Assembly (NCBI RefSeq): GCF_019059575.1
Contig: NW_024881540.1
Location: forward strand, 992,001 to 1,056,000
DNA length: 64,000 nucleotides
Reading direction: 5' to 3'
Source of the DNA: Amphibalanus amphitrite
Taxonomy: Eukaryota > Arthropoda > Thecostraca > Balanomorpha > Balanidae
Shown one piece after another: positions 2,742-58,125 of the stretch (the stretch's first letter is position 1; every line of letters begins with the position of its first letter). Below the pieces are notes generated by a model. That model was not told the origin of the DNA. It searched no databases and saw only the letters and a list, made by a program, of their open reading frames with translations. The translations under genes were made by a program, and so were the position numbers.

Positions 2742-3925
2742 TTAACCCGCGCCCCGCTGGGCTATTCAGCCATACGCGCCCTGCTGGGGGGGGGGGGCAG
2801 ATTCTGCCCCCCCTGTCTAACTTCCGAACCGATGGTCGTAGAAAGACGGGGAAAACGGCAATCGAAAGCTCTCAACAAGGCGGATCTTAAGAGCCCAATT
2901 TTTTTTGCTTAAGTAGGTCAGAGGTCAGGTCAAGGTCAGGTCAAGGGTACAAAATGCAAGTTTCTACAGTATCGGCCTTGCACCGTAGTTGCCGAAGAAT
3001 GGACTGAGACTGATTGCCCAAAACGTGTTCTTAGACTACCAAGACAATATTCGCTGCACACAATGTCATTCAAAGGTCAAGGTCAAGGTCAGGTCAGGTC
3101 AGGTCAGGTCACCAAAAACAAAATATAGAAAAGGGCATGTGCGACACATGTTTTATGGGTCATTTTACTCATGGAATTCAATAGGCACACTCAATAAGTG
3201 ATATGGACCACCTCTGGATGAATTTCAGGTCGAGGTCAGGTCAAGGTCAGGTCAAGTGAGGTCAAATTTTGAAGTTGATTGTTAAGGCCTAAAAAGGTGT
3301 CTATTCGATGCAGTTTTTCACGGCGAATCGAATTGTGCTATTTTTGTTTCCGTACGAGGTCTAGAACTTCCAAAAAAATCATTTTTCAAAAATTTTGTGT
3401 GTCGTGACGTCATAAAATTTTGAATAACTCCCACATTTTTGAACCGATTCTTCTAAAAATTTGTATGTAGGTGCACATAGACCACTTCTTTGACATATAT
3501 TCCGGTTTTTTCGATAAACTCAAAATTTTGGATTTTATAAATATTTTCCCTAAAAAGTCAGTTTTTTGGAAAAATTTTGGCCAAAATCCAAAATTTTCAA
3601 AAAAACGAGATAGCCATTTGATAGACAAAGTAGAATCACGTATAACCTTTTTTGTTACGTCTTGATTCCTTTAAAAATGAAGATGTTAGCGGCGTTTGAA
3701 CTTTTGCCGTTTTTGAGGCGAAAATGGCGAACATGACGTCACTAAAACGTCAATTTCTCAAAAATTTTCCGACGGATTTCGCTCAAATTTTCAGGGAACA
3801 TGTCAAATTGATGTATGATAAGGTACTGAAAGTTTGACGTCGCTGGCGTAACGCGTTTAGAAGTTATTGGCGAAAAACGGGAGGGGGGGCAGATTCTGCC
3901 CCCCCCCCAGCGGGGCGCGGGTTAA
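2742..3925. mobile_element. TTAA-flanked piggyBac-like MITE, head GCAGATTCTGC
   Basis: The 1,184-bp element is bounded by TTAA at 2742-2745 and 3922-3925. The termini TTAACCCGCGCCCCGCTG are perfect inverted repeats over 18 bases. Just inside both ends lies a G-run/C-run hairpin with the same palindromic head GCAGATTCTGC. The left end carries a second, diverged copy of the terminal motif (CGCGCCCTGCTGG) about 30 bases in. The body contains an (AGGTC)n array at 3074-3112 and TGACGTCA-like sites. No protein is encoded. The core from about 2,910 to 3,830 is nearly the same as in 32,683-33,869, yet both ends differ. piggyBac origin follows from TTAA targeting and CCC termini; the mobilising transposase is unknown. 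Confidence 0.9.
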
Positions 3926-3974
3926 CATCACCGGATACATGATATAATCCGCGGCGACGCAAATCGGTAAATAA

Positions 3975-4925
3975 TACAACCAGTAAAACGCCTTTTGGGG
4001 CGACCAACGGAGCGAGCGAGAGGGTGGGCCTTGCATGTGCGAAATTGCGAGGGGGTACCTCTAGCTAAATTGTGCACTGCACCTTGCTAATCGGTCCTAG
4101 CGACGTGCCTAATTTGAGTGCAATCGGCCAAGCCGTTCTCGAGATCTGGAAGCGGCACTCTGCACGTGCGCACGTGCGAAATGGGTCCCAACTGAATTTT
4201 GCACGGCTGACGGCACCCTACTAAACGGTCCCTAACCATATAACAAATTTCAGCGCAATCGGGTCAGTCGTTCTCGAAGTCTGGAATCGACCCCTGCACG
4301 TGCGCACGAGCAGCGGCACCCCAACTGTGACACATGGACATGCATTGCCTCAGAGGCGGCGGAAGGTAATTTGGGATGGAGGGGGGGGGGCACACCTGAT
4401 CCTTCCCGGAACCTAGGGTACCCCCAAATCTAGTTTTCTCACCGGTTTTAGGCCACTTATTTTTCACCCCTTTGCCTTTACAACGAAAAATCGAAACGAA
4501 AACATTTGCAAAAAAAGTGAAATATTCCGTCTCATCTGAGCCAAGGTATACCGCTTCAGCCGCCACTGCATTGCCTAGTGGGTGCCTACCTGCATGTCAT
4601 CTTTCAGCGCAATCGACCCAGTATGTAGTTACCGAGATATTGCCATTGTTACAAAACTGACACCTCTTCGTTTTGCACGTGGCACGTGCAAAGGGGTCAC
4701 CCACACGCATCGGGAATAGTCCAATAATTGGTAGAAGGAATGAAGCTACCCTACAAAAATTACCGCATGTAAATCGGTCAAGTGGTTGGTAAGATACCTA
4801 TAAGCCTCGCAAAAGCGTCCGCACGGCCGGCCGCCCGCTCATGCTCAAGGCCCCAGGACCTCATGCTAAAAAATTTCCGTTAATCTGCAAAAGACTACGC
4901 TCGCTTTGCTCGCTCCGTAATTACA
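3975..4925 (-). repeat. E-box palindrome repeat, copy 1
   Basis: This is a dispersed repeat of about 0.95 kb, here in reverse orientation relative to the later copies. One boundary is the motif AAAACGCCTTTTGGGGCGAC followed by GAGCGAGCGAG; the other is CGCTCGCTTTGCTCGCTCCG. Inside are repeated phrases (CGATTGCGCTCAAATTTGG and its complement) and CACGTGCGCACGTG-type palindromes. No frame is conserved between copies, so it is judged non-coding. It is interrupted by a hAT-type MITE at 4351-4568. Confidence 0.75.
4351..4568. mobile_element. hAT-type MITE with 8-bp TSD CATTGCCT
   Basis: The 218-bp insert starts CAGAGGCGGCGGAAG and ends with the near-perfect inverse CTTCAGCCGCCACTG. It is flanked by the perfect 8-bp duplication CATTGCCT (4343-4350 and 4569-4576). 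An 8-bp duplication with CAG...CTG ends is the hAT signature. Part of its interior (GGGTACCCCCAAATCTAG onward) is shared with the MITE at 39,929-40,183. It is non-coding. Confidence 0.88.
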
Positions 4926-4955
4926 GTGCTCACTGCTCATAAAAATAAAAATACT

Positions 4956-5915: not shown

Positions 5916-7107
5916 TTAACCCGCGCCCTGGTGTGGGTCTGAGCCACTTTCGCCCTGGTGGGGGGGGGGGCCAAAATGACCCCCCCCGTCTAACTCGAAA
6001 ACGAAGAGGGCTAGGAAGACGCGGAAAAAAGCAAACGAAAGCCCATAACAAGTACGTTCGAAAGTATTTCGGTCATTTTTTCGCTAAGGTCAATATTGAG
6101 GTCGCTAGAGGTCATCATAGGTCAAATTTCAGTGTTTTCGGTGTTGCCGGACATATTCCGCTGTAGCTCGGAAACTAGAAGAGCTAGAGAGCCGCGGAAA
6201 AAAGCAATCGATAGCTCTTTTCAAGCTCTTTCGCCAAGGTTCGTCAGATTTGACCTCAGCTCAACGGTTTGGCCTACAGAGGTCATGCAAGGTCAACTTG
6301 GCAAATTTCGTTGAAAATGTTTTTAACTATAGCATGCATTCACGAGAAAATAGAGAAACGATTCATGCACCATCGTGCTTGGCTCGTCGAGACGCGTCGA
6401 ATGATATATAGTTTGACCTCGAAAGGTCATTTTGAAAATTTGACCTCAGGTCAAGGTCATGACCTTACCGAAATAGGTCATGCTGCATATCATTCGATCC
6501 GCATTGACGAGACAAACACGATAAACGTCGAACGGAGTCTCTATCTCTATTCAATAACAAGTAAGTGCAGAAAAACCGCTGGTGACCTCTGGTGACCAGG
6601 GAGATGACCTAGCGTGACCTCAGCGAGGTCACAAGCAACTGGTTTCACATGGGCTGTGATTTGCTGACCCAAGACACTTCAATAACGAAATATAGGAACA
6701 ATCACGCCCGATTTAGCTGAAAAACAACTACTTTTCGATTCTCCCATTGACTTATAATGGGGAGCAGCGATGACCTGACCTGACCTTAGGTCACATTTAT
6801 AAAAAATCCGAGATAGCCATTTTGTAGAGCTGGGTGACATCTTCAAGTACTGTAAATTTTACATCGATCGGATAAAAGCTGTGCCTTTGAGAGAGCTTTG
6901 AACTTTTTTAGAGGTGGTGTCAGTTTTGGTGACCTTGTGACCTGACCTGACCTGACCCGAACCCCCCAAAAAAGGACATGATGTAAAAATGTTGAATAAA
7001 CAGCTATACAAAGTTTCAGGGCGCTAACTCAAGTGGTTTCTGAGTTATCGCTGAAAAACCACAGGGGGGGCCAAAATGGCCCCCCCCCCCACCAGGGCGA
7101 AGGTTAA
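5916..7107. mobile_element. TTAA-flanked piggyBac-like MITE, head GGCCAAAATGGCC
   Basis: The 1,192-bp element is bounded by TTAA at 5916-5919 and 7104-7107. Its right terminus reads inward TTAACCTTCGCCCTGGT. The left end has the terminal motif twice (CGCGCCCTGGTG, then TTCGCCCTGGTGG about 30 bases in). Both ends have a G-run/C-run hairpin with head GGCCAAAATGACC (left) or GGCCAAAATGGCC (right). The body holds many half-sites, including AAGGTCATGACCTT near 6452 (inverted repeat, no spacer), TGACCTCAGGTCA near 6441 and TGACCTTAGGTCA near 6781 (everted repeats). It lies directly upstream of the cuticle-like gene promoter. Confidence 0.88.
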
Positions 7108-8394: not shown

Positions 8395-9995
8395 GCTCAT
8401 TTCATTCTCATTACGAGCGAGCGAGCGCAGCGAGCGAGCGAGTTCATACTGAAAAATTAAGGGAAAATCCTGAGTATGAGCGGCCGGCCGGTCGGCCGTG
8501 GGGGCGCTCTTCAAAAGATAATATCTTAGGAACGGGACATCCGATTGACAAGCGGTCTTCTTTACTGAATGTCACTTGGACGTAAAAGTTATGTGGTGTG
8601 ATGGCACCATGCGTTCTTGCCAACCACCGCACGTGGCGCGTGGCAAAGTTGGACATTTTTTAAGAACCCCCAAAATAGCAACCTCAATAACGGCACAACG
8701 GTTGGGCCGATTGAATTGAAACTCAGCACACAGGTCTCCATCAGATAATTCATCTGCATGTGTTAACCCTCGCCCGTATTGGTGTTTTTCCAGCCGCGAA
8801 CGTATAAGGGGGGGGGGTCCGTTGGACCCCCCCCCCCCTTGCCGTTTCGCCCCTGATCGAGCTAGAGCTTCGCGGAAAAAACGAGCGTGTTGCCCGTGAC
8901 GAGAGAAAGCCGATGATACCCAATTTTAAGGTCCTAAGTCATTGGTTGACCTTGCAGGTCAGGTCAATGACCCCAAAGGCGGGAAAATCGGGACCTGTTA
9001 GAACGTCGTAAAGTGTTGCTGATGTGGGGTTTTTCGGGGTGCTGATCACGAATATCATGTTAGTTTTGATCACAGATGATGTCTTCATGTATTTAGGCCA
9101 GGTCGGGTCAGGTCAGGTCAGGTCAACCAGTAAGGGTATTCGTAGTAGGTGGCAACCGCCTCTGACAGCTTCGTAACATGTTACGAAGGCACCAAAACTA
9201 CTTCGTAAATGCTCATATGGTTGCTAAATTCGAATTCAGCTCCAAAAACTGGCCTAGGAACATGTAAAACTCGGAAAAGTGAACCGAGGTCATCAAAGGT
9301 CAATGACCTGACCTGACCTTCAGGTGACCTGGACATCCACCCTAATGCATGGGGGCAACATCATATCACATGTTTGAACGCTTGAAACCACGAAAAGACT
9401 GCAAACGCGCGGCTAATGCGAGCCGACATATGCCGAATCGCGATTCCAGCCAAACATGGTCTCGAAAAGTAGGTCACAGGTCAAAGGTCATTTGGGTCAG
9501 GGTCATGAAATTTTCAGAGTAGGTGTGAAATTGATGAACGCGAGGGTACTGAAAGTTTCGTCGCGATCGACCGCTTTTTACGCGAGTTATTCGCGAAAAA
9601 CCATGGGGGGGTCCGTTCGAACCCCCCCCCCCCTATACGGGCGAGGGTTAAGTCTGGGGTGCTACTGCACGTGCGCACGTGCAGGGGGCGCTCCCAGATC
9701 TCGGGAACGGCTGGGCCGATTGCGCTCAAATTTGGTACACGGTTGGGGACCAGTAAGTAGGGTGCCGTGCAAAAGTCAGTTTGGACCTCGTTTGCACGTG
9801 CGCACGTGCAGAATGCCGCTTCCAGATCTCAGGAACGGCCGGGCCGATTGCGTTCAAATTTGGCACACCGCTAGTGACCGGTTAGAAGGGTGCTTTGCAC
9901 AAGCCCGTTGGAAGTACCCTCTCGCCCCTGCGCACGTGCAGGGCTCACTATCTCGCTCGCTCGTTCTTCGCCCAAAAGGCGTTTTACTGGTTTTA
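8395..9995 (+). repeat. E-box palindrome repeat, copy 2, split by a TTAA element
   Basis: The repeat starts with GAGCGAGCGAGCGCAGCGAG near 8,414, runs to the TTAA at 8763, and resumes after 9651 with GTCTGGGGTGCTACTGCACG. It ends at CCCAAAAGGCGTTTTACTGG near 9,994. The right part has CACGTGCGCACGTG palindromes at about 9,669 and 9,795, each followed by the phrase GGCCGATTGCG and a TTTGGTACAC/TTTGGCACAC motif. It is judged non-coding. Confidence 0.75.
8763..9651. mobile_element. TTAA-flanked MITE, head GTCCGTTGGAC (family copy 1)
   Basis: The 889-bp element is bounded by TTAA at 8763-8766 and 9648-9651, with termini TTAACCCTCGCCCGTAT and ATACGGGCGAGGGTTAA. Hairpin heads are GTCCGTTGGAC at the left and GTCCGTTCGAAC at the right. 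The same family occurs at 23,330-24,223 and 57,229-58,125, and the body is also shared with 31,518-32,420. Two EcR-type inverted repeats are present: AGGTCAATGACCC at 8961-8973 and AGGTCAATGACCT at 9297-9309. An (AGGTC)n array lies near 9,105-9,125. It is inserted in an E-box repeat. Confidence 0.92.
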
Positions 9996-12730: not shown

Positions 12731-13677
12731 TTAACCCTCGCCCGTAAACGGCGATCTGCCACCTTCGCCCATGCAGGGGGGGGTTGGTGCGACCCCCCCC
12801 CCTTGGCGTTTGAAAACGGAGCGTCGTAGAGCTTAGCGGAAAAGACCAACGGATTGCTCTCGCCGAGATCTCGCGATTGGTGGTATATTTTTTGGTCCTA
12901 GGTCAACATTTGACCTACTTTTGACCGGTCAAAGGTCAAATTTTCGGAAAAAATAGACTTTTTCAACTTTCCGCGGCGATTGCGGCAAAACGGTGGGAGA
13001 TATCGACTTGAAACCTTCACTATCGTGTTCCTTGATCAATTCTCTATCGTTTGGTATGTATTTCGTTTCCCTAGCTCTAAAAATGGCGCGTTGGGAGCGC
13101 CGGAAGTCGGCAAGGTCACAGTCGGCGGCAGAAATTCGAAAAATCAAAATTTAAATTTTTGAAATCTTATTGTATTTTTGGATTTGGGAGGTCCATTTGC
13201 TCCCTATAGAAGCTAATATTGCTGCATATTCCCATTGAGGTGACAAGAATTAGCAAAATAGTGGTTCGGGCGCTTTTCAAAAATAGTACCGGACGCTGTT
13301 CCTCTTGTGACGTCATAGCTCCGTGACCTGACCTGACCCGGTCAAGTTTCTTATACCATATGATAGCCAATACTTGCCCCAACATGCATGGGAAGTTTCA
13401 TCACGATCCATCAACCGATGTCCGTACCACCGGCAGGAAACCTCGGGCGTTGGCACTCAGTTTGTGAAAATCCGGCCGGAGGCTGTTCCCTTTGTGACGT
13501 CATAACTCCGTGACCTGACATGACCCGGTCAATTTTTTTTTATCAAAAGATGCGCAAGGTTTGCCCCATAAGGTACCCAAAATTTGGCGGCGCTGCGCGC
13601 CGCCGTTTTTGCACTATTTCCGAAAAGCCTCAGGGGGGGTTGCACCAACCCCCCCCCCCTACATGGGCGAGGGTTAA
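12731..13677. mobile_element. TTAA-flanked MITE, head GGTTGCACCAACC
   Basis: The 947-bp element has TTAA at 12,731-12,734 and 13,674-13,677. The left terminus is TTAACCCTCGCCCGTA, with a second motif (TTCGCCCATGCAGG) about 30 bases in; the right end reads inward TTAACCCTCGCCCATGTAGG. Heads are GGTTGGTGCGACC (left) and GGTTGCACCAACC (right). The body has a few TGACCTGACC pairs and repeated TGTGACGTCATA phrases near 13,308 and 13,493, showing an internal duplication of about 185 bp. No coding region. Confidence 0.88.
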
Positions 13678-14504: not shown

Positions 14505-17500
14505 TATCAATCAATCAATCAATCTTTATTGAGCATCACAAAGTGACAATGCAAAAATACCATTGAAACAATGTTTCACAACAAACACAAAAAACTGGAT
14601 CAGTATTCAGTTGAGATGATCAACAACAATCAGGGAAATGACAGACAGTATCATACAGAGGTTAGCAGCCGGATGAGGCGCCTGGTGGGCCGGTGGCCTG
14701 ACATGGAGGCACAGCCAGAAGCGAGCTGATGCTGTCAACCAGTCCGCTCTGGGGGACAGGTGCATGGACACGCTCTCTTTCAAATACGCCACCAGCACAA
14801 TACATAACTGCGTCAAATTCGGTATTGCACAACGCATAAACATGGTACAAGAACGAGCCAGCGACAACGCTCGGATCAATGGCAAGTTGTGCCAGTGCCG
14901 CTATGTACGCCTGGCGTAGCCGGTGGGACGAGCGAAAGGCCGCACCGAAGCACCGTAAGGTCGAGCCTCGGAGCATCTCGTGAATGGGAGGGACTTTTAA
15001 CGCAATTAGCAGCGCTGTATGATGTGAAGTTTTAGGAAGTCCCACAGCAGCTTTGATGCTAGCTGCCTGGAACGAGTCAAGGTGCTCTACCTCAGAACAC
15101 GTAAGGGGTGACACTTCACATCCGAAGGTCAATGTCGGCAATACAATAGTTTTCCATAGGTAAATCTTATCCCACGGCGAGAGACGGTTTGTAAGCATTC
15201 CTACTGGCGTTAGGCCGAAGAATGCACCTCGTGCCCGCTTGATACGCGGTGTTACATGTGGCGCAGCAGATAGCTTCGAATCAAGGATGATTCCGAGGTG
15301 CTCCGATTGAGGACGCACCTGAAGTGTCTGACCAGATAATGTCCAGTTGGGTACCTGAGCTAAGAGCTCGCTGCCGAATATGATGCAATGGCTCTTAGTT
15401 TTAGACGGCTGGTGATGAACAAACTCTAGACGCCACATGTTCGCGTAACATTCAACTAGATGCAGAAGACTTTGGAGGTGCTTGACGTTGGTGGATAAAA
15501 GTAGAAGGTCGTCTGCATAGCATACTGCAGGAACATGCTTAGAGTACAGCGTGGCACCACGTCCGCTGCTGTCTAACGCTCGCAGAAGAGGACACAGGAA
15601 AATGTTCGTGAACATTGGAGATAATATTGCTCCCTGTCGCGTGCCCCGATGAATTTTGAACTGCTCAGGGGCAATGCCTTCCAGAATGACGTGAGCAGAA
15701 AGGCGATGATACCAATCAACGATTAACAGCCAGTAATTGACGCTCAAATACCGTTCCAGTCTGAAGAATAAACCGTCGTGCCAGATGCGATCAAAACACT
15801 TACGCGCATCAAGGCTGGCTGCGAATACCGGTAGCCCCTTCCTGCGCTGGTGCTGCACTGTCTCACTAGCAAGGAGCGACGCTTGTGCAGATCCGCGGCT
15901 GGGTATAAACCCGAACTGGAGGTCGTGCGGCTCGACAGACGACATCAGCTCGTCGAGAATCAGCAATTCCAGCATTTTCGATGCACATGTAGTGATGGTG
16001 ATAGGTCTATAGTTGTCCAAGCAGTTTGGATCAAGGCTAGGCTTCTTAAGCAGCGGCATAACTGCACTGTCGGCGAAAGAAGAGGGTACGCTGCACGACG
16101 ATATGCAGCAAGACAGCAGTTGTGCCAACGCGGCCAGGAGTGCAGGTGACTGGCCAAAGATGAGATGTTCTGGGGTCACGCCGTCCACGCCTGGGGCTTT
16201 ACCACGCTCCAGGCGGGATATTAAACCAGCCACTTGGTCAGCAGTGACGTTGTACGTACAAATGCTGTCTCTAGCCGCCGCCACCCGCGCGTTGACAGCG
16301 GCAGAGATACGCCGCTGCTCTGGATCCAGTTCTTCAACGCTATCCTGGTGAACCCGCTCGAAATGGGCTCGAAACTCAGCAGGACTAGGCTTTGCATGTG
16401 GGGCTAAACCTCCTCGACGAACCCGCTGTACCCGCCGCCAGAATGCGTTGAGGTTGCGATTCTGTCGAAGATTCTGAAGAATACTGGCTTCTTGCTCAAT
16501 ATGACCAGAGGCTGCCTTACGCCTGGCCCTCCGGTAAGCTCGTCTGGACGCAGCATAACAGCCACTAACGATAGGCGAGGCATATCGACCACACTGTTGC
16601 CACAGTCGCCGCCAGAAGCGAGTCCGGTCACGTTCAGCTGCTACGGCCGGGCTCCACCAGGATCTGGGTTTCCGTCGCGTCTTGGCGCACCCAGAAGATC
16701 GAGCAGCTTCATGAATACAGCTTGTGAACAACTCATCAATCTCGTCCAGAGAGCCGCTACATAACGGTAGGTAGATGGGCGGCTAGCAACTGCTCCAGAT
16801 GAGACCTGTAAGTTTGGAGGTTATCTGAAGAGCTCCATACAAGTATACGTCCGAATGCACAGCGGCACCGACTGGCCCGTGGACAGATCGATGAGCGCAA
16901 GGTGTGAACACAGACATTCTGCAGACTATTGGTAAGTGCGGGCTTAACCCGCGCGGGGCTGGGGGGGGGGGGGTAAATTTTACCCCCCTCGCGAATTTTT
17001 GCAATATCTCAAAAACGGCGGCGCGCAGCGCCGCCAAACTTTCAGTACCTTTTCTTACATCAATTTGACACGTTTCCTGAAAATTTGAGCGAAATCCGTC
17101 GGAAAATTTTTGAGAAATTGACGTTTTAGTGACGTCATGTTCGCCATTTTAGCCTCAAAAACGGCAAAAGTTCAAACGCCGCTAACATCTTCATTTTTAA
17201 AGGAATCAAGACGTAACAAAAAAGGATATACGTAATTCTACTTTGTCTATCAAATGGCTATCTCGGTTTTTTGAAAATTTTGGATTTTGGGCCAAATTTT
17301 TTTTCAAAAAACTGACTTTTTTGGAAAAATAGCTATAAAATCCTAAATTTTGGGTGTATCGAAAAAACCGGAATATAGGTATGTCAGAGAAGTGGTCTAT
17401 GTGCACCTACATACCCAGTTTTAGAAGAATCGGTTCAAAAATGTGGGAGTTATTCAAAATTGTATGACGTCACGACACACAAAATTTTGAAAAATGACTT

Positions 17501-17834
17501 TTTTGGAAGTTCTAGACCAGGGGTGGATTTTTTTGTTTTTTATTGGGGTTGCACAGCCCTGAAAGGGCGCCCAAAGCGGTTCCGAGGGGCGCAATAGTCC
17601 GGAAGTGGGCGCCACCAGGTACGGTCGTAAACTTAGCGTTGGAGGGGGGGGGGTGAATTGGCAAAGGGGCCCCTGTAGACCCTCGCTGGGGGGGGGGCGG
17701 TGTGTTAGCTTAACCCGCGTACCGCGGAGGGGGGGGGGGCGAATATCCGTCCCCTCCCCCTGAAGTTTTTCGTAAGTAGCGGAAAACTTCTGAAACCAGT
17801 ATGAGACCCTTATATAAGCCCGGCGTAAGATCAT

Positions 17835-20800
17835 TTAAGGCCAGTATTGAGATTGACCCTCATAAACCGGGTGAGACCTCGCACAGCAGTATGGGTCTTT
17901 GAACTCCAGCGTGGGTCTTACGAGACCTGCCTGAGCCATCAGAGGCCAGTGCGGGCCCGGGGTCATCAAAGGCCAGTGCGGGGTCGTCAAAGGCCAGTTC
18001 GGAACCTCTGAGGTGGTGTGAGCCCTTGAGGCCAGCGTTGGTCCTTGAGAGGTCAATGTGGGACCCCTTGACTGGTATGGGCCCTAAGAGACATGTGTGT
18101 TGCCAATGCTACCCAAAATAGACACAACTAACGACATGGGGCTCTCAGAGACTAGCAGCGGCCCTTAAAAACCTGCACGGGCCAAACAGATCGACAGGGG
18201 CCCTCCGAGATCGGCAGAGAATAAGAAGATAGCATGAGGCGCCTATGATGGGCAGGCCCGGGCTCTCAAAGATCTAAATGGAACTATCAGAGACCAGGGA
18301 CCCTTGGCAGCAGACTTGGGCCCTCAGAAACCGATGTGACCCCGATATGGTAATAGACCTTAATGCCGGCCCGCTGCGACGAGATAACGGCCCTCAAATT
18401 CCGAAATTCCGACATGGGGACCAACAGAGACTGACAGGGAACCTTGGAGGACGACATGAAAAGCCAAAAGTTCTTCCTCGGACCCCAGAGACTAAAGATG
18501 GGAGTCTGGTGCGGGGCCCTCTGAGGCCTGTTTTGGGCCACCAGGGTCCGGTTCGGTCCATCAGATGCCGGTTATGGCCCTCAAAAGCCGGTTTGGGACC
18601 CTGAGTGGCCACTGGCCAGTACTGGCCCTCCAGAACCAGTTGGTCATCAGAGGCCAGCCCAATATGATCCCTTACAAGCCAGTGTGGACCTCTCGGAGGT
18701 CAATGTGGGCCCTCAGAGCCCAGTGCGAGGCACCCAAAGTTCAATCTTGAGCCCCAGCGACCGGAGTGGGTTCATCAGAGGCTAGTGTGGGTCCCTCAGA
18801 GGAGCCCGATTCGGGGCCCTCAGAGGTCGGTGTAGGGCCCTCAAAGGCCAGTATTGGCCCTCAAAGGCCTGTATGGGGCCCCCAGGCTCAGAGACCGATG
18901 TGGGCCCTCAGGGACCAGACTAACCTGGCACCCCAGAGACCATAATAGGGCCATCAGTGGCGGTGTAGAGACCCCATAGACCGGCTGGGGCCCATTGAGG
19001 CCAGTTTGGGGCCCTCAGAGTCCAGTGTGGGGCCTGTTATAAGCGACAGTAGGGCTCCCGCTTGCATTGTGTCTCGAACAAGACTGGTCCACATTTCAAC
19101 CGCGCCCGCTGACCCCAGCCGTCGGCCCATGCGCCGGCGGGCAAGTCATCGCAGAGGCGGCTCCAGGGAGACAATCGAGGAGCACACTACCACAGGGCCC
19201 CTAAAGACCGTCATGGGTCCTCAGAGGCCGGCATAGAGCCTTCAGAAGCCAGTACGGGGCCCTCAGAGGCACCCAAGGGACAAGGGCCAGCCTTGGGTGT
19301 CAGTGACAGAAATGGGGTTATCAGAAGCCGGTGTGAGACATTTAGAGGCCGGTTTGGGGCCCTCAGAGGCCAGTTTGGGACCCTTAGAAGCCAGTTTAGG
19401 GCCCTCTGGGCTCTGAGACCAGTACAGGGCCTTCAAAGGTCAGTTTGGAACCATTAGAGGCCGACGTGGGTCCTCAGAGGCCAGTGTGATTTCTACAGGG
19501 CACAGGCCAACGTGGAGCCCTCAGAGGTCAGTATGGGGCCCTAAAAGACCGGACAGAGCGTCCTCAAAAGCCAGGATGGGCCCTCAGAGGCCAATGTTGG
19601 TCCTAAGAGACCGGCATCGGGCCTTCAAAAGCCAGTACGGGCCCTCAGAAGTGCCCAAGGGTTAGTCTTTGTCCGCCAGAGACAGAAATTGGGCCATCCG
19701 AAGCCACGGTGTTGGGCCCTAGGAGGCCAGTTTGGGCCGTCAGAGACCAGTTTGGACCCTCAAAAGACCAGCGTGGGTCCGTAACGGCAGTGTGAGGCCC
19801 TCAGAGACCAGTACAGAGCCTTCAAAGGGCAGTTTGGAACCATCAGAGGCCGACGTGGGCCCTCACATGCCGGTGTGGTATCTTAACCCGCGAGTTGCTG
19901 GGGGGGGGGGCGTTAAACGCCCCCACTTTTTTCGCCGGGCCATAGCATAAAAACGGCGAGCCGCAGGCGCGCCAAATTTTTGGTACCTGTAGGGAATTGA
20001 TTGAAGTTTATTGTGACAAAGTTTCAAAAAAAATCGGTCGGAAAATTTTTGAGATATCGAGGTTTTAGTGACGTCATGATTTCTGAGGTTTCCACCAAAA
20101 ACGGCATATGTTCAAAAAATCATATAAAATCACAGAATAGACATACAGACATGCCGTAAACGCTATTAGACTGCCAATACCATGATCAATCAAATGGCTA
20201 TCTTCGATTATTGATTATCGTTCCGTATTTTCCATAATCTTGAGCTGAAGCTTGGCAATTTTTCGTGACTTCTTCACGACCATGATACATGCATTTCTTA
20301 AATTGAACTTTTTGAGCCAAACACGTACACATATGATAAAATGAATGTCACCATCGTGTTCTACGCCCCAAATTACCTATAAAACATGTGTCACAGGCTG
20401 CGAATATCAGTTTTGATTTTCGGGGATATGTGCCTACCCGGTTGACCTGACCTTGACCCTGACCTATGCTTGACTGACCCCTACATGGAGCTGACACTCT
20501 TGTAGGCCTTATATGATGGATTGTGCACCGTTTTGAAAGAGTTTATGACGAGAGGCGCCCATTGCGAAGTCCTGAAGTCCATGCTACTGAAAGCCCGATT
20601 TCAGGTGTTTGACCTGACCTTGACCTGACCTGTGACCTCAAAATTCAACTTTTAAGTACTCATCTGAAGCGTCTCGTCGCGCTCTTTCGTTTGCCGCCTC
20701 GTGCGTTTCGCTGCGCCTATTGGTTCTCGAGTTATCGGCTGGGGGCGTTTAACGCCCCCCCCCCCAGCAAACGGTGGGTGGCGAAATACCCCAGCAACTG

Positions 20801-28768: not shown

Positions 28769-28872
28769 TTAACCCTCGCCGGCACAGGGGGGAGGGGTTG
28801 ATGCAACCCCCTAAGGTTTTTTCGCGAAGAACTCGCGTAAAAAAGCGGCTGATCGCGACGTAACTTCCATAG
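28769..28872. mobile_element. TTAA-element end fragment (head GGTTGATGCAACC)
   Basis: TTAACCCTCGCCGGCACAGG, a short G/C hairpin with head GGTTGATGCAACC, then TTTTTTCGCGAAGAACTCGCG and a GCGGCTGATCGCGACG phrase, matching the left end of 31,518-32,420. The match stops after about 100 bases and no partner end was found. Confidence 0.6.
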
Positions 28873-30631: not shown

Positions 30632-30710
<79 letters not shown>

Positions 30711-30711
30711 A
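30631..30711. repeat. (CT)n microsatellite
   Basis: About 80 bases of almost pure CT repeat with one early interruption, directly inside the right end of the hAT-like element. Confidence 0.97.
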
Positions 30712-30786
30712 GCGGGCCCCTGACAGAAATTTCGGGGGGGTCAGCTGACCCTCTGACCCCCCCCTGGCTGCGCCACTGCAGACTGC

Positions 30787-41027: not shown

Positions 41028-41061
41028 CTCGCTCCGTTAGTCGCCCCAAAAGGCGTTATAC

Positions 41062-42673: not shown

Positions 42674-42786
42674 TTAACCCACGCCCCGCTGGGAGGGGAA
42701 CAGAATCCTTTTCGCCAGCTGTTTATAAACTCGTTAAGTTTATGAGCAGCTATACATCAAACTTTTAGTATGTACCTTATGATACA
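42674..42786. mobile_element. TTAA-element end fragment
   Basis: TTAACCCACGCCCCGCTGGG is the terminal motif of the CCCGCGCCCCGCTGG family with a diverged, collapsed hairpin region. No second end was found before the next element begins at 42,787. Confidence 0.55.
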
Positions 42787-44914
42787 TTAACCCTCGCGGG
42801 CCCGGGGGGGGCGTTTTTCGCCCCCCCTGGCGAATATTTGCGATAGCTCCCGAACGCTTAGGGATAGGAAAGCGAAACTTTCAGTACCTTTTCTCCCATC
42901 AATTTGACATCTTCTGAAGTAAAAAATTTGGACCTAGCCCCATTGATGACGTCACAAGGTCCATTTTTCTAGACCCCTGCACGGCAAATTTCGGCGTCAC
43001 AGACGCAAACTTCAAATAGCTGCTAAAAATAGAGTTTTAGAGATAAAGACAAATTACGAGCCGTAGCGTTGTCAGCGCGGCCACCGGCTGGGCGCCTTCC
43101 GTAATAACGGAACACCCGGGCCGCACGCACAGCCGTTCCGTAATTGGGGGATGTAGTGATGGCCATGAAAATAAAAGACGTAATTGCGAATAAAGTGGTA
43201 CCAATCGAGTTGAAATACCATCAACAGAGTCCTAAAAATATTTTTTACAATATTGTATTTCAATGTTTCCAATATTCATCGCAAATGTCTTATTTTCTGA
43301 GGATTTTCTTCCACTGTTGTGACACCTTCAGCACTATGGGCGCCATGCTTCTTTGAAGACGAGTGTGGAGGTATTGCGGCGGCGTATGGTTCTTCTACAA
43401 AGATATGTCTTGGAGAGTCCTATCGAATGTCACCTCGCGGGACTTGGTAGGGATCATTGGCTCTTAAGATATCGGTGGTAAACGCGTTCGGTCATATTAA
43501 TACCCGAACACGCAAAAACTCTGTCGGCGATGAGATTTGAACCCATGACCTTCCTCTATATTTTCCAGTCGGAAGTTTTTTTACCCCCAAGGTACCAGTT
43601 GGGTATTTGTCGAATGATGCCGAAACAAGCACCAGTAGTTTTAGAATTGATAGCTCTATCAGTATAGCTTGAAGGTGGCGTACCCACTGATATAATGTAA
43701 GACGAGGAAGCCAGCAAAGTCCCAAATCATAGAATTTCACCACCAACCCAATGTTAAAGAGACCCGACTTTGGGTGCTTCTACCCCCCAGGTACCACCTC
43801 AGTTTTTAAGAAATGCACGATTAGACGACTGATATTGATAGAGCTTGAAACAAGGAACGTTTTGAGGCTGAAGGTGGCGGTACACATTGCGCCAGTTTTA
43901 TTTGAGTTCAAGTAAAATTCAATTTTGTACGTTTTTTCAATGGAAAAAGGGTAACGCCAGAACATATCAAAAAGGTCCGTGGCCACGCTGACAACGCTAC
44001 GCACGGTTGTGTAGCGTTTGACCTAGAGAAAAATAGAAAAATAGTTTTGGTGACCTGAGGTCAGAGGTCAGGTCAACGACCCCGAAATGTGGTTTTAGTT
44101 TTTCGCAAATAACTTCGACAAAAACGGTCCTAGAGCTACGGCAATGGTACCATCGCATTCGCCTTGTCAAGCCGCGTCGAATGATGTATATTTTGTTCGG
44201 AAAAGGTCAAGTTTTATGTTGACCTCATGTGACCTCGAATGACCTCTGGTTGACCTTGACACATGAGAGGTCATTTATGATGGATGTTTACCCGCTGATC
44301 ACGAATCTGGCATCTATTTTCCTCTAAGCCTTCATTTAGAGCTTCTGGACGGCAAAATTGTCTTATTTATTATTACTAACTTGAATCAGTGAAATAGCCT
44401 CTAGCAGGGATACTCTTCTGTGACCTTGACCTTTGAGCAGCCTTGTATCGTAGGATGAACCACAAATAGGGAACTGATAAGCCTCAAAACATTTCAAAAC
44501 ATCTTGGAAGCTAGCACGCAAGATGTGCGAAAAAGTGCCAAGTTTGAGGTCAATTTTTAGCGTGACCTTGACCTTGACCTTTAATTTTAAGCACATTTTC
44601 GGAATCCTCAGATGCTCTACTTTCGTTTGACACCCAATTTTGCCGGTTTGATGCAGCCTGCCGTCCTCTAGAAGGCTTACTTTGAGATCACTACACATGT
44701 GCCGGTTTTTGCCTTTGACCTTGACCTCTGACCTTGAAAATTGACCTGAGGTCAAAAATTTTAGGTGCTTTAGAATCGTCTCGTAAGGACCTTTCGTTTG
44801 GTATCGCTTTTGTTTCCGTAGCTCCCTTATTTACGGAGTTAGACAGGGGGGGCGAAAAACGCCCCCCCCCGGGCTGCGGTGGTTGGGATTACCCCCCGGG
44901 CCCGGCCGGGTTAA
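42787..44914. mobile_element. TTAA-flanked MITE, head GCGTTTTTCGC, with an internal insertion
   Basis: TTAA at 42,787-42,790 and 44,911-44,914. Left end TTAACCCTCGCGGGCCCGG; right end reads inward TTAACCCGGCCGGGCCCGG, with a second motif (ACCGCAGCCCGGGG) further in. Heads are GCGTTTTTCGC and GCGAAAAACGC, exact complements. After removing the insert at 43,063-44,000 the length is about 1,190 bp, like the other large families. The body carries TGACCTTGACCTCTGACC near 44,716 and many half-sites. Confidence 0.87.
43063..44000. mobile_element. Unclassified insertion with about 23-bp inverted ends
   Basis: GTAGCGTTGTCAGCGCGGCC at the left is inverted at the right (GGCCACGCTGACAACGCTAC), one mismatch in 20. 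The 938-bp insert lies within a TTAA element. No clear target duplication was found. Non-coding as far as seen. Confidence 0.6.
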
Positions 44915-45415: not shown

Positions 45416-48400
45416 TGTGAGATGTTCTCTGAGAACTTGAACGAAATCTGTCGGATTTCTTTTTATAGAAAATGACGTTTTAGTGACGTGACGACGAAGT
45501 TGAGTTATCGGCAGATTTTAACAAAAAATTTAATTAAATCGGTGTACATAATCCACCGATTAGCCGGCTCAGCCACATTTGAACTCATAACGTGGCCATA
45601 AGTTACTGAGCAAATATAGGAACCACCGAGCAGATTTGCGCAGCTACATCGGAGCCCGAGTCTGCGTGGTCACCATCCTTTAGTCATTTAACATTATATC
45701 TCTGGTATCCTTCATATATTCGAGGATACTTTGTCAGTGCGCCGAATGTTCATAGGTAAATTCCTGCTTGTGTACAATGCCCACAGATTACAATACCAAA
45801 GCCTAACCACATATTTCTTATGGATGACAGTTTTGATGGGGTTATGAAGTACCAACATCGGCAAAATTTGCCACATTCTGCGCAATGGGGATTCAAAAGT
45901 GTATGATAAACTCCCTTACATCTACTTTTTTTCTTAAAAGATACAGGTGTTAGTATTTGGGATTGGTCTTTAATCTATTGTCACATTAGCACGCTCCAGA
46001 TATGTAATTTCAAAATAATACATCAAACTCTCGTCGGCTTTAATGACGCCTGAGCCAACTAAGCGTAGACACATTTTAAAGCTTAATGGCGTGAACCACA
46101 AGGCCACTTCAGACGAATGAACAGTCGCAGCTATCGCCTCCCACCCCTCAGCCGGAAGCCGGCGGTGCCTGTGGACAGGTGAGGTGCACGCCTCAGTGGT
46201 GGGTGTGTCGGCGTGCACCCCAGCCATTGGCGGGGGAGGGGGAGGGGCCCAGACGGCCCCTGACCGCCGCTGACCTTGTCCCGGCTCCGCCGGTCTGTCG
46301 CCCCACCTGGCCCGACTCATGGGAGGGACGGCCGACCGGCCTTCGGTGCACCATATGGCAGCTCCGCTGGCCTTCGGTGCCACCATATGGCAGCTCCGTC
46401 ACGCTGGAGTTCCCCTAACGTTGATACAGCTCAATCTCGACTTTATTTTAGCTGCGAAATGCGAGGCTCTCTATGTGCTCCGCTGTGTGACCTCTCGTTT
46501 GCAAACATTCTGTAATGAAATAGTTCACCCTATATGTATTGTATATTGTATAACCGTAGACCTCTGTACACCTTTACAGAGATCAGAGATGTCAGAGGTC
46601 AGGTGTACGGAGGTCCATGGCATAACATCAGTCTGCGCTATATTAAAGTTACAACATGAATAGGGGACACCTATAGAAATATGGTGTAGGAACTAGGAAC
46701 TCGATAACGCATGAACACTAAACAATTTTGACTTTTGAGCATACTCGATCTCATAGAACTTTTGGTCTTTTTATCTATTGATGGAACCGTGGACCTAATG
46801 CTTTTTTAATACTTTTTTGAACTCTTCGCAAAGGACTACCAATATTATCGCGGGATGCTCCAGTGCGAACTACCAATGCACTGTGAGGTTGATATAATAA
46901 TTTCAATTATCGTATTTTTGGCGTCTATTAAAACACAAATGTAATGAAGGTGGTCTCTCCGGAAATGTCCGCGTTCAATTCAAGCCCGAATAATTCAAGG
47001 CGTGAGGCGAGCTCTAGATGAGAGAAGATTCCGGTGACCCCAGCCGGCATCTGACCACCGCGCTGGGAGCGGCCCCGGCCGGGGTCAGGCGCGTGTTGTC
47101 GCTCTGGCAGAGGTCAGCGGGAGCGCGCGATCCTGGGTCACAGGTCAGGGCGGGGGGCTGTAACGACCCAGCGCCACGCCACGGGGCGCTCCGCAGGGCG
47201 GGGCCGCCGGGCCGACAGCTCAGAAGGCCAGTAGAAAGGATCGAGGTCGAAACACATGGCCAATGGAGGCGGAACCAGATCGCTCATGAGATAAAGATAG
47301 ATCGTCATGCACGAGATAAAAGAACGTCATAGCATGTGTCTACTACTCGTATTATGGTAGTAACTAGTAATATCTTAATAGCAAAAACCGTGAGCGATTA
47401 GAAGACCGACATTGAAAGTGAGGTCCTCAAATTTAAGATACGATTGATCGCATGGTCTCCGCACATTTCCAGCATGATTTTGAACCCGGAAGTTATTAAC
47501 CGCTATCTCTCGGCACTTTTATAAAGGCATCCGTTTGCCAAAAGTAGGTATTTTGATTTTAGTCAAGACCATAAAACACTAAATGAGCTGCAGGCGATCT
47601 TAGTCAAAAAGCAGTTCTTGCCCCGCTGCGACGAAGCATGTGAAAAACACTGGTATAATTTTCACTTCTTCAAAAGCCGTGACATTAAATTGCATTGCTG
47701 TGGTCAGTGGATGGCGGCCGCGTTACAAAGACAAATCCGAAATTTGTACGCACTAGAATAGGTTTGCTTAAGACGTGGGTGTAGTTTTGTACATGGCTTG
47801 GTAATGCCTTATCCCTATGAATAATTTTGAAATTTTAACATTGGTCCTATGGCGCTGCAAGGTAAGGGTGGATTTGATAACCAAACCATTGCTTGGAGCC
47901 CTATACCAAATCAATACTTTCTCAGAATATCAGAAATGCTTTCAGGAAGTGACGCCCATGTTTCCAAACACACATGCATTTTTAACCAGATGGGCGAAGA
48001 GTATGAAATGCTACGAAAAATCAGCGCGAACTGTTTGAACGAGTCAGTGTGCAGCGGCAGGGAGCTTCCACTAAACATAAGCTATAAATAAATAAATAGA
48101 TATATATAAATTATAGTCATTCTCTTTTGCGAGAGACGACGGTTCCGATCGTGCACGACACTCACCTTTTCTGCCACAGTGCCACCGCACGTCACGGCCT
48201 CTAGCCGTGAATGTCGGCCTGGGCGTTACTTAATACCGCCGCCAAGGCTATAGAACTCCAGGCAAGGACACCAGCCGTTTGACCTTGAACGCCGCCGGCC
48301 GGCCGATGACGTCATTGGAGGCAAGCCGGCTCGGCGGACACACAAGGCGAATGCATAACGGAGGGGCGTTGGTTAACGTTGCGGGAGCCGGGGAGATATT

Positions 48401-54300: not shown

Positions 54301-56528
54301 TACTTAAATAAATATATTATTTTTTTTCGTAAGATTCGGTTGAATGAAAAAATATAATTTCGATGTCTAATACTGTTTCATGAAAGCTTTTTAGCTCTGA
54401 GAAGTGTTCACACTATGACGTCAGCCGGCCTGCGCCAATTTCTCGTGACGCTTCCTGTTATTTACCGCCTTGGTTGAACCTTACCTGCCTATTAGTCAGG
54501 TAATTGACTCTTAAATTGTGGACTAGAATTTTGGACCCTTATTACCATGAACTGAACGAAGAATGAAATTGGTAAAAATGTACTTTCCATTTTCAGTCAT
54601 CGTTTAACCCGCGCCCCACTGGGGGGGGGGGCTATTTATAGCCCCCCCTCCCGTTTTTCTGCAATAACTTCCAAACCGCTTGACGAATCGACGCCAAACT
54701 TTCAGTACCTTCGGCTGCATCAATTTGACACCTTGTGTCAAAATTTGAACTTCGTAGCTACCATAGGTCGGCCGGAAATGACGTCAGAGTGACGTCATGT
54801 TCGTCCGATTTCGACGCAAAACATTGAACCACGGCAATCGCTCCCAAGAGCTCAGTTTTTAAGCTAGATCCAATTTCTTTGCATGAAAGGACTCAGAATT
54901 GACCGCGCTATCAAACTGCTATCTCGGATTTTCAAAATTTTGAAAAATTCGAAAATTTTATATAATAATATTCAAAATTTATATTTTTATATTTTTTTCA
55001 AAAAGTTTTTGACTTTTCGAAAAAACCGGAATATATGTGACAGAACGCATGATTATGACTAACCCTAGCAAGTTTTAGCTAAATATCTTCAAAAATGGCC
55101 AAGTTATACGCATTATTGCAAAAAATTCACAATTATTAATTTTTCAAATCAATTTTTCAGTACGTATTTGGCATCGTACACCAATATAAATGGCACCATC
55201 GTGTTCCTGAGCTCAAACTGCATCCAATAGACACCTTTTTTGTTGAAAAATTTCAACTTCAAAATTTGACCTTTTTTGACCTGAAAGTGACCTGACCTAA
55301 GCTAATTTCGACTCAAAATGACCTTGAATGACACAGACGACATCAAATTCGAAATCTATGGCCTAAATGGACCATAAAACATGTGTCACGTGACCGACGC
55401 ATGATATAATATTTTCGTGATCTGTGATGACCTGACCCTGACCTGAAAATCAAAGTACAAGTTTGGTACCCTCAAGGTATCTAGAGCATCTGTTCACGAG
55501 TGTGGAAACCAAAAATGAGCCTGATCTGACTTGTAAGACGGCGGCCAGAGCCCAAAATGTGAACAAGCCAAAGTGCTAATAATTTTTACTTTGACCTGAC
55601 CTGTGACGTCATCGGTGACCTCGAGGTCAATGAAATTAGGTTTCGCTCGACAGTTTTTCCGGGGCTATCAGACGTCGTTTGAATTTTGACGATCGGCCCA
55701 GTAGTTTCGGAGTTAGGAGGGGGGGCTATGAATAGCCCCCCCCCCCAGTAGGGCGTGTTATACACAGACCCCAGTGGGGCGCGGGTTAACACACATTAAC
55801 ATTGACCACATAACTAATATTCTTCGAAGGCACGAGGAATACGATCCCAAGAGGTTTAACTTTAACTTTTTAGGTGGGGCGAACTTGGTGAAGGAGGAGC
55901 CCCATGGTGGAGGGGGTGCCCTCAATAGGACTTCATTTTAAACCCATACAGGTGGCCAAATTATCACATTGAAGAGGGGAAGATGTTCTCACGCCCTCCC
56001 TTTCTAGCTCGAGTCCTGAACCTATTAGCGACAAAAACACTAAAAAGCAAACATGGATTATTAAAGAAAGAAATTAGGCTATTTCAAGGTGGATCAAGTC
56101 TCCAAAAGTAAACGAATGTCACATTTTCCCGATTGCAACATTTTCGACAAATCATTTCATTACCTGTAAACTAATGAAGACATCGCGAAACCATAGACAT
56201 CGCGGAATATCAAGGCTACGGATGGTCCATTCATTAACTACACTAAATAGAATAAGGGGTAGCACACCTGGTTATAAAGTTCTGCACACAGTGCTGTAAC
56301 TGCACCCGTATACTGCACCCCGGAGCGGTCTTTTCAACGCGTATGCACGATGCTCCTATCCCATGTAGTTAGCTTCATGCTCACCTATAGTTTCGAGCTC
56401 ACCTTATCATATTGGGTCGCAATAAGCCGGTAGCCCTCCAGCGGAGACAAGCGCGGTCCGATTAGGCGCATTTGCCAGAGAGCGTTTGGCTCATTGGCAA
56501 ACTCGCTGGGCCGCTCGAGCTGTGACAT
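51328..56528 (-). CDS. METTL27: METTL27-like SAM-dependent methyltransferase, five exons
   Basis: Coding exons on the minus strand: 56,403-56,528, 53,161-53,301, 52,323-52,421, 51,803-51,932 and 51,328-51,509, with phases that join to about 225 residues. Exon 1 starts MSQLERPSEF and ends TQYDK at GTGAGC. Exon 2 (DFDPENYAAPRLV) carries SAM motif I, DVAAGTGLVG. Exon 3 has the post-I region NIDALDPCREM. Exon 4 has YDAVVIAGGFVQGH and MIRICKPG; exon 5 continues KPGGYVINSMR and ends YIYQKL with TAA. Order, length (the human protein is about 245 residues) and motifs fit the METTL27/WBSCR27 family of class I methyltransferases; the substrate is unknown. The exon 3 donor (CAT/GTGGGT) is weak but is the one that keeps phase. 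Intron 1 (about 3.1 kb) holds two MITEs. Confidence 0.85.
53479..53781. mobile_element. GGAGTC-rich MITE in intron 1
   Basis: AGGGCTGCGGAGTCGG at the left is inverted at the right (CGACTCCGCAGCCCT). TTGCAC occurs on both outer sides (53,473-53,478 and 53,782-53,787), a possible target duplication. The interior is mostly GGAGTC hexamers with single variants. CAGGGCTGCGGAGTC-type elements are widespread in invertebrates; superfamily is not certain. Confidence 0.75.
54604..55789. mobile_element. TTAA-flanked MITE, head GGCTATTTATAGCC
   Basis: The 1,186-bp element in intron 1 of the methyltransferase gene has TTAA at 54,604-54,607 and 55,786-55,789. Termini TTAACCCGCGCCCCACTGGG and CCCAGTGGGGCGCGGGTTAA are perfect inverted repeats. 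Heads are GGCTATTTATAGCC and GGCTATGAATAGCC. The right end has the motif twice (CAGTAGGGCGTG and CAGTGGGGCGCG). The body has GTGACGTCAT sites and TGACCTCGAGGTCA near 55,616, an everted pair of half-sites. The core is shared with 57,142-60,393. Confidence 0.92.
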
Positions 56529-57141
56529 TGCTACCCTTCCGGCGGCCGGGCCGGCACTGACCGCCCGCCGCCTCTAAACGGTCGTACGGTACGACCCCAA
56601 CTGCGCCTCGTCTATGTGATCCAATCCAGACCTGAAGCTTTAATGAAAACAGCGTAGTCCGCGATCTATTTTGTGGAGTATTTTATATAAACAACGAAAT
56701 TCCCAGAATACACTTCACAAATACTCACCCGAGAATTCAGATACCTAATGCCGTTTTATCGTGGAGTATGACTTGTTTGTAAAAAGAACAGCACGATAGA
56801 AAGCATCAGAAAGAAGGTATTTAAATATTCGAGCTGCTGAAACTATTTTCACAATGCAGTGACGGTTATGTTTGGAGCCATGATTCTGCAACACTGTCAG
56901 TCCGCATGATTCAGTTTTCACATGACCATTCCCTGGCAGCCGCATGATAATGGGTTTCAGGGGCAGCTCCAGTCAGTATCCAGGACCAAACCTCTGGAAA
57001 TCCACTTTTGGATTTTTAATATGGCCCTATTTACAGAAAAGAGGTAGTTGCGAGACGTGTAACTAATTATTTCTTTTGTCTGTTATCGCAGTTGTTTTTG
57101 AAAGATGGTGTGCATAGATTGGCTTTTGTTTCAATCTTCGT
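56529..57141. other. Upstream flank of the methyltransferase gene
   Basis: Contains the presumed promoter of the methyltransferase gene on the minus strand. No TATA box is evident within 100 bp of the ATG. GGTCGTACGGTACGACC at 56,580-56,596 is a perfect palindrome. No other gene is supported. Confidence 0.4.
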
Positions 57142-57228
57142 TTAACCCTCGCCGGCACAAGGGGGGATGTTCGGCCGATTTCGACGCAAAACATTGAACC
57201 ACGGCAATCGCTCCCAAGAGCTCAGTGT

Positions 57229-58125
57229 TTAACCCTCGCCCGTATAGGGGGGGGGGGGGTCGAACGGACCCCCCATGGTTTTTCGCGAATAACTCGCGTA
57301 AAAAGCGGCCGATCGCGACGAAACCTTCAGTACCCTCGCGTTCATCAATTTCACACCTACCCTGAAAATTTCATGACCCTGACCCAAATGACCTTTGACC
57401 TGTGACCTACTTTTCGAGACCATGTGTGGCTGGAATCGCGATTCGGCGTATGTCGGCTCGCATTAGCCGCGCGTTTGCAGTCTTTTCGTGGTTTCAAGCG
57501 TTCAAACATGTGATATGATGTTGCCCCCATGCATTAGGGTGGGTGTCAAGGTCACCTGAAGGTCAGGTCAGGTCATTGACCTTTGATGACCTCGGTACAC
57601 TTTTTCGAGTTTTACATGTTTCTAGGCCAGTTTTTGGAGCTGAATTCGAATTTAGCAACCATATGAACATTTACGAGGTAGTTTTGGTGCCTTCGTAACA
57701 TGTTACGAAGCTGTCAGAGGCGGTTGCCACCTACTACGAATAGGTACCCTTACTGGTTGACCTAACCTGACCTGACCCGACCTGGCCTAAATACATGAAG
57801 ACATCATCTTTGATCAAAACTAACATGATATTCGTGATCAGCACCCCGAAAACCCCATAGCAGCCACACTTTACGACGTTCTAACAGGTCCCGATTTTCC
57901 CGCCTTTGGGGTCATTGACCTGACCTGCAAGGTCAACCAATGACCCAGGACCTTAAAATTAGGTATCATCGGCTTCCTCTCGTCACGGGCAACACGCTCG
58001 TTTTTTTCTGCGAAGCTCTAGCTCGATCAGGGGCAGAACGGCAAGAGCGGGGGGGGGGGTCCAACGGACCCCCCCCCCCCTTATACGTTCGCGGCTGGAA
58101 AAACACCAATACGGGCGAGGGTTAA
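57229..58125. mobile_element. TTAA-flanked MITE, head GTCCAACGGAC (family copy 3)
   Basis: The 897-bp element has TTAA at 57,229-57,232 and 58,122-58,125. Left end TTAACCCTCGCCCGTATAGG, right end AATACGGGCGAGGGTTAA; heads GTCGAACGGAC and GTCCAACGGAC. EcR-type sites AGGTCATTGACCT at 57,570-57,582 and GGGTCATTGACCT at 57,909-57,921 match the positions in the other copies (reverse orientation to 8,763-9,651). The empty target (GTTTTTAAGCTAG) is visible in 54,604-55,789 near 54,856. Confidence 0.93.

Follow-up and report, generated by a model that had tools for sequence, protein, structure and literature searches.

We examined a 64,000-nt window of the Amphibalanus amphitrite genome (NW_024881540.1, positions 992,001 to 1,056,000), to which all counts and comparisons in this study refer, and recognised 13 complete non-coding elements of the piggyBac type, among which bodies of one kind occur with different end types. 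To collect the elements, TTAACC ends were listed for both strands and then paired by eye; one copy split by an insertion (16944/24857) was counted and partial elements were excluded. Elements are named by terminal coordinates (Table 1). TTAA flanks both sides in 12 of the 13 elements, 31518 being without its right TTAA, and CCC opens the tip after TTAA in 25 of the 26 ends, the exception being the short end of 5916 (CCT). All 13 elements have one short and one long end. The short end comprises, in this order, TTAA, a 13–14-bp tip, a G-run, a nearly palindromic head of 8–10 bp and a C-run, and the long end comprises TTAA, a similar tip and, after a spacer, the tip motif once more, followed by the same kind of palindrome. 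The G-run of the long end starts 27 bp deeper than that of the short end in 10 of the 13 elements, and the palindrome offset in the remaining three is 26, 28 and 32 bp. Judging from this geometry, which is shared with T. ni piggyBac, the short end would correspond to the left end (LE) and the long end to the right end (RE).

Hairpins of the form G6+/head/C6+ were found 28 times in the window, compared with a mean of 0.07 and a maximum of 1 in 30 first-order Markov simulations, and 25 of the 28 lay at most 75 bp from one of 32 recognised element ends (partial elements included). The longest stop-free stretch per element ranged from 67 to 155 aa, and the 155-aa stretch, in 42787, had no Pfam match; the 13 elements are thus non-coding and at best non-autonomous members of the piggyBac superfamily, and none of them encodes a DDE_Tnp_1_7 transposase. 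An Rfam scan returned nothing at the gathering threshold, and two pattern scans for these ends in viral contigs gave no match.

Tips and heads differed from family to family, as in the tip/head pairs CGCGGGGCTGG/TAAATTTTA, CGCCCCGCTGG/CAGATTCTG, CGCCCGTATA/TCCGTTGGA and GGCACA/TTGATGCAA, and were matched between the two ends of an element. With one representative of each of 10 families and 200,000 permutations, the match score between an element's own two ends was 112 for the tip motif (45.75 expected) and 72 for the head (−3.15 expected), and no permutation reached either score. The element's own partner was the single best motif in 6 of the 10 families and a best head in 9, the exception for heads being 31518. 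Matching of tips between the two ends is ordinary for transposons with terminal inverted repeats (TIRs). In the parts of an animal piggyBac survey available to us, left and right TIRs are similar in many elements and TIR conservation within clades is low (PMC10813416).

Shared bodies with unlike ends

The clearest contrast between body and ends was found in 2742 and 32683, which a preliminary description of the window had presented as one nearly identical core between differing outer parts. Coordinates, ends and heads were borne out on re-inspection, and so was the shared core (body I); the outer parts measured about 185 bp on the left and about 89 bp on the right, not the 130–170 bp proposed for each side. 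In an end-to-end alignment the core had 39/910 differing sites, and the outer parts had 67/178 (185 bp on the left) and 35/89 (89 bp on the right). The best two-breakpoint model gave a log-likelihood gain (delta-logL) of 92.9; on the coarser grid used for permutations the gain was 90.7, and the highest value among 100 column permutations was 10.5. The breakpoints were placed within a GGTCA array and close to a conserved subterminal box. A third copy of body I (16944–17517 plus 24242–24857) has ends of the 32683 type on both sides, and each of its halves contrasts with 2742 in the same way (delta-logL 67.3 and 27.4), so the type-b ends of 32683 are not those of one odd copy. The flanks of this third copy are unlike those of 32683; the combination of type-b ends and body I therefore stands at two loci and was mobile after it had formed. 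Between the two type-b copies, one half has 2/617 differing sites and the other half 16/563 (p=4e-4), an unevenness suggestive of copying among copies.

An older body-I element bears on the order of events. Its short end (42674–42786) has the tip of 2742 and a remnant of the 2742 head, and the element resumes at 45416, past two TTAA elements, where it matches body I at about 80%. Pairwise alignments were used for these comparisons, an eight-sequence alignment being poor in the middle. Over the first 60 bp the end agreed with 2742 at 48/60 sites and with 32683 at 34/46 (alignment score 185 vs 114.5), and its body was about equidistant from the two (63/79 and 60/79). Since the end is nearer to 2742 and the body equidistant, type-a ends look like the older partner of body I and type-b ends like the newcomer, as far as this one damaged element indicates.

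The second group shares another body (body II). As previously described, 31518 has the body of 8763, 23330 and 57229 but not their ends; its own two heads, TGATGCAA and TTGGTACGA, qualify that description, as they match each other poorly, while its tips match. The bodies were 7–8% diverged and not nearly identical: 31518 differed from 57229, 8763 and 23330 at 56/755, 60/774 and 50/761 body sites, at 12/47, 12/47 and 11/47 sites in the left end, and at 29/84, 28/62 and 29/80 sites in the right end. Coarse delta-logL values for the three pairs, in the same order, were 24.4, 30.4 and 27.2, against permutation maxima of 11.8, 12.2 and 10.7. The differing stretch, which is essentially made up of tip, spacer and palindrome, covers about 47 bp at the short end and 60–85 bp at the long end, with breakpoints at 47 in the short end (where the hairpin ends at 44) and at 820–842 in the long end (hairpin 831–860).

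At either end, the head of 31518 is similar to its counterpart in 12731 (TTGGTACGA vs TTGGTGCGA and TGATGCAA vs TTGGTGCAA). Counts of sites uniting 31518+8763, 31518+12731 and 8763+12731 were 38/2/3 in the part adjoining the short-end palindrome on its inner side and 30/1/2 in the corresponding part of the long end; in the tips they were 2/0/3 (short) and 5/7/12 (long). The tip motifs of 31518 are unlike those of 12731, so the donor would be a relative with GGCACA tips. The partial element 28769 is a second copy of the GGCACA end type joined to the start of body II, and its head TTGATGCAA corresponds to the 31518 head TGATGCAA. Insertion at TTAA is documented for 57229 by its empty site, as 54604 continues uninterrupted through the corresponding TTAA.

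In a third mosaic, 57142–60393, the G-run of a 25-bp GGCACA tip passes directly into a 54604-type body at position 194 of the latter (97% identity over 66 bp). This body runs on beyond the inserted 57229–58125 and a tandem array, and the element closes at 60393 with a CGCCCCACTG long end. This element with one foreign end is a single damaged copy, and it would also result if a deletion had fused a neighbouring GGCACA element with one of the 54604 type. Both ends had been thought to change together; tips do match within elements, but the foreign tip of 57142–60393 shows that joint change is not obligatory.

That core and ends differ in history, as the preliminary description held, was sustained by the two-breakpoint tests and by site patterns with an outgroup. 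For the latter, 54604, which has 67% identity with 2742 across 724 aligned columns, was added as outgroup. Counts of sites shared by 2742+32683, 2742+54604 and 32683+54604, in that order, were 343/14/14 for the core; the short end gave 5/18/11 and the long end 28/9/34 (Fisher test against the core, 1.7e-23 and 2.4e-22, respectively). A plain increase in rate does not account for these patterns, because faster ends on the same tree would not reverse them. In a control pair with like ends (54604 and 59575–60393), the long end differed at 7/184 sites and the remainder at 59/624, which refutes fast-evolving ends, as the end changes more slowly than the body. Simple divergence, the alternative attached to the earlier proposal, is largely refuted here by the control pair and the outgroup patterns. 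Four of five same-end comparisons (57229/8763, 32683/24857, 32683/16944 and 54604/60393) stayed below their permutations; the fifth, 57229/23330, exceeded them (coarse delta-logL 13.2 vs 10.2), and its excess, which we take for misalignment, is confined to 20 columns at the palindrome of the short end, in which the runs are of unequal length.

Resampling of the ends gave various nearest relatives. In the short-end subterminal part, just internal to the palindrome, 2742 was nearest to 54604 (97% of 2000 bootstraps), and, with 16944 left out, 32683 was nearest to 12731 in 53%, to 54604 in 29%, to 42787 in 16% and to 2742 in 1%. In the long-end subterminal part 2742 was nearest to 19883 in 48%, to 32683 and 5916 in 21% each, and to 42787 in 10%. 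The short ends of 32683 and 12731 share a 42-bp block that is 93% identical (33764–33805 and 13570–13611) and contains the palindrome GGCGGCGCTGCGCGCCGCC; blastn gave no other match between these two elements.

Transposase gene and other features of the window

The open reading frame (ORF) at 35233–37038 encodes a piggyBac transposase (PF13843, E 1.7e-63), whose structural relatives are 9c0f (piggyBat) and 6x67 and which is 99% identical over 94% of its length to an Amphibalanus amphitrite protein, in line with the assignment of the window to that species. It lies in a probable autonomous piggyBac at 34747–37461, the ends of which are weakly similar to each other (TTAACCCCCCAGTGCCCA / TTAACCCAGGAACGCCCA). 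We considered this transposase as the driver of the elements described above and dropped it, since the probable ends at 34747 and 37461 have other tips and no G-run palindrome.

The insertion 17518–24241 that splits 16944/24857 has terminal repeats CAGGGGTGGATTTTT/AAAAATCCACCCCTG and a duplicated TTCTAGAC, and is hAT-like by its hallmarks. Inside it lie more TTAA elements as well as an array of tandem repeats of about 1.4 kb. A 505-bp TTAA-bounded element (44911–45415), with quite different ends (AGGGACTATCCCAC), sits at the TTAA edge of 42787. GGTCA arrays occur in element bodies, for example at 3075–3115, 3227–3265 and 31834–31865: 222 of the 400 GGTCA/TGACC motifs fall in the 14,135 bp of elements and 178 in the 49,865 bp outside, and 33 of 38 closely spaced direct AGGTCA repeats lie within elements. 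AGGTCA is the half-site of nuclear receptors.

Tandem arrays and LINE-type ORFs (RVT_1, Exo_endo_phos, RNase H) are also present. The array at 29636–30723, with overlapping glycine/proline-rich ORFs on both strands, is probably a minisatellite rather than genes. The inverted pair 40296–41028 / 48884–49615 (733 bp, 99.9% identical) is a very recent duplicate or transposition.

Table 1. Positions, strand and end types of the elements and related features in the window.
Feature	Position	Strand	Remarks
Element 2742	2742..3925	+	body I, type-a ends CGCCCCGCTGG, head CAGATTCTG; long end left, short end right
Element 32683	32683..33869	+	body I, type-b ends CGCGGGGCTGG, head TAAATTTTA; long end left, short end right
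Short-end half of second type-b/body-I copy	16944..17517	-	split by insertion 17518–24241
Long-end half of 16944/24857 copy	24242..24857	-	target duplication TTCTAGAC at its start
Type-a short end of older body-I element	42674..42786	-	interrupted by 42787–44914 and 44911–45415
Body I continuation of 42674 element	45416..45490	-	about 80% identical to 2742
Element 54604	54604..55789	-	CGCCCCACTG ends, head CTATTTATAG/CTATTCATAG; body 67% identical to body I
GGCACA tip piece	57142..57228	-	25-bp tip fused in G-run to 54604-type body (position 194 on)
Rest of 57142 element	58126..60393	-	body, tandem array, CGCCCCACTG long end; ends unmatched
Element 57229	57229..58125	+	body II, CGTATA ends; TTAA insertion
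Element 8763	8763..9651	-	body II, CGTATA ends
Element 23330	23330..24223	-	body II, CGTATA ends
Element 31518	31518..32420	+	body II, GGCACA ends, other heads; right TTAA missing
Partial element 28769	28769..28869	+	GGCACA short end and start of body II
Element 12731	12731..13677	-	both heads resemble those of 31518
Element 5916	5916..7107	+	CGCCCTGGTG ends, head CCATTTTGG/CCAAAATGA
Element 19883	19883..20809	+	AGTTGCTG ends, head CGTTAAACG
Element 42787	42787..44914	+	CGGGCCCG ends, head CGTTTTTCG
Element 62455	62455..63063	+	GCCGCTG ends, head CATAAAGTTG/CATATAGTTG; offset 32 bp
piggyBac transposase ORF, 601 aa	35233..37038	-	outside all 13 elements

Origin of the mosaics

Mosaics, matched tips and heads, mobility after the switch and insertion at TTAA are all seen in the window. 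We consider it probable that copying between families makes such mosaics and that transposition multiplies those whose two ends are paired by one transposase. The tip would be recognised by the core of a particular piggyBac transposase, with the paired C-terminal zinc domains of that transposase reading the palindrome, and several transposase specificities or lineages may coexist in the genome. Mosaics would arise from homologous copying between elements, either ectopic gene conversion or template switching in break repair, with exchange points in the GGTCA array, the conserved subterminal box or the palindromes; the breakpoints of 31518 and of 57142 lie at or near palindromes. Transposition would then act as a filter, so that only mosaics with both ends read by the same transposase spread. 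An apparent paired switch would mainly be a body copied into another matched shell; alternatively, ends may be replaced singly, the matched outcome alone surviving. A body swapped inside a shell and ends swapped around a body give an identical product.

Several observations weigh against this explanation. In the window we saw no transposase gene with the tips of these elements and no donor that combines complete type-b ends with a different body. In the long-end subterminal part 32683 was nearest, its own type aside, to 2742 in 61% of the bootstraps, which argues against full discordance at that end. The IQ-TREE blocks of the ends (61 and 89 columns, plus both joined) were too short to decide: approximately unbiased (AU) tests of a single clade of 2742, 32683 and 16944 gave p=0.076 (short), 0.148 (long) and 0.077 (joined), values that lean toward discordance and are not significant. 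The polarity inferred from 42674 comes from a single damaged element, and the whole evidence base is 64 kb of genome. Finally, repair after piggyBac excision can be seamless, according to the parts of the source available to us (PMC7351741), so gap repair at excision sites is no obvious source of copying.

The preliminary description had instead proposed that both ends are exchanged together, as a paired module, around a resident body, which we regard as unlikely, though the best placed of the other explanations. Tip and head match at both ends, the heads of 31518 are like those of 12731 at both ends, each in its short- or long-end form, and both breakpoints of that element lie near palindromes. 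Against a simple paired swap stand the subterminal affinities of the body-I elements, incongruent between the ends, and the one foreign tip on 57142–60393. Just internal to the palindromes, the triplets with 54604 as reference are 3/11/7 for the short end but 18/4/22 for the long end (Fisher p=0.003), and the congruent left and right trees that the preliminary description named as support were not borne out. With these affinities incongruent and the AU tests not significant, a simple paired swap is not established. Moreover, no known single step moves two ends a kilobase apart while sparing the middle; one internal tract suffices to copy a body into a shell.

Divergence along an ordinary family tree, whether simple or driven by selection for fast-evolving ends, seems improbable to us. 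It would explain why the differences of 31518 fall just in the parts expected to be read by a transposase, and the AU tests do not reject a single clade for the ends of 2742, 32683 and 16944. It is opposed by the control pair with its slower end, by the same-end pairs, halves included, of which four of five stay below their permutations and the fifth exceeds them only in 20 palindrome columns, by the outgroup patterns, which are unlike between core and ends, and by the roughly 270 bp that differ between 2742 and 32683, far past tip and palindrome.

We give a similarly low probability to a sequence of events in which one end was replaced first and the other was then overwritten by copying within the element, between its inverted ends, via the palindromes. 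Matched tips and heads next to unmatched subterminal parts, and the one-ended mosaic 57142–60393, would fit such a course; the heads of 31518 would be expected to be equal, but they keep separate short- and long-end forms, each 12731-like, a comparison of few bases. An assembly or haplotype artefact, to which a highly repetitive window might lend itself, is very improbable given type-b ends with body I at two places with different flanks, 28769 as a second witness for body II with other ends, and a TTAA insertion present together with its empty site.

Inter-family copying followed by transposition, the explanation we prefer, could be carried further. Tip plus palindrome may form exchangeable docking cassettes, so that bodies repeatedly change the transposase lineage that carries them, by copying at the G-run palindromes, and end specificity and body evolve separately under a matching rule of the transpososome; we advance this extension tentatively, as a possibility that we rate below even chances. 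If it were true genome-wide, families of miniature inverted-repeat transposable elements (MITEs) could not be defined by body alone or by ends alone, and a body could outlast its transposase through a change of ends. The coexisting tip/head pairs would offer naturally matched DNA sites from which to learn how end recognition by piggyBac transposases works, and helper switching by non-autonomous elements, until now a vague idea, would become directly testable in an animal genome.

Comparison with known systems

Like piggyBac-derived MITEs in general, the elements are TTAA-bounded, non-coding and present in several copies. Chimeras of one body with different ends are already known from Galileo, a P-superfamily transposon of Drosophila mojavensis; in the portions of the open-licence literature that we consulted, we found neither body/end chimerism nor G-run palindromes described for piggyBac MITEs, and did not meet a piggyBac-type case with matched tip-palindrome modules.

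According to the consulted parts of the Galileo study, some copies combine the two TIRs of one subfamily with an internal region from another, a single central region occurs with TIRs of three subfamilies, and copies of the E subfamily show 98% identity in the centre and 77% at the TIR ends (PMC3573991). Its authors propose ectopic recombination or conversion with both breakpoints inside the element, perhaps as the origin of a subfamily (PMC3573991). The elements of our window resemble Galileo in having the same internal region with different end types, both tips being of one type. Unlike them, Galileo has long TIRs and 7-bp target duplications, and a tip-plus-palindrome module is not among the features described in those parts (PMC3573991).

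The likeness to piggyBat of Myotis lucifugus, as far as the accessible parts of its description go, lies in a tip motif followed by imperfect palindromes and in two unlike ends; piggyBat, unlike our elements, has three motif/palindrome repeats on LE and lacks such a palindrome on RE (PMC11707139). For T. ni piggyBac, the available parts of the sources describe a 13-bp TIR and a 19-bp subterminal repeat separated by a spacer of 3 bp or 31 bp, a difference of 28 bp (PMC2532691), and a dimer of the cysteine-rich domain (CRD) on the palindromic repeat, with a duplicated segment in RE (PMC7351741). The elements of our window share with T. ni piggyBac (LE35/RE63) the TTAA target, the asymmetric ends, a palindrome at two spacings and a duplicated segment in one end, and differ from it in having no transposase, in palindromes built of G-run, head and C-run, and in the many end types that stand side by side.

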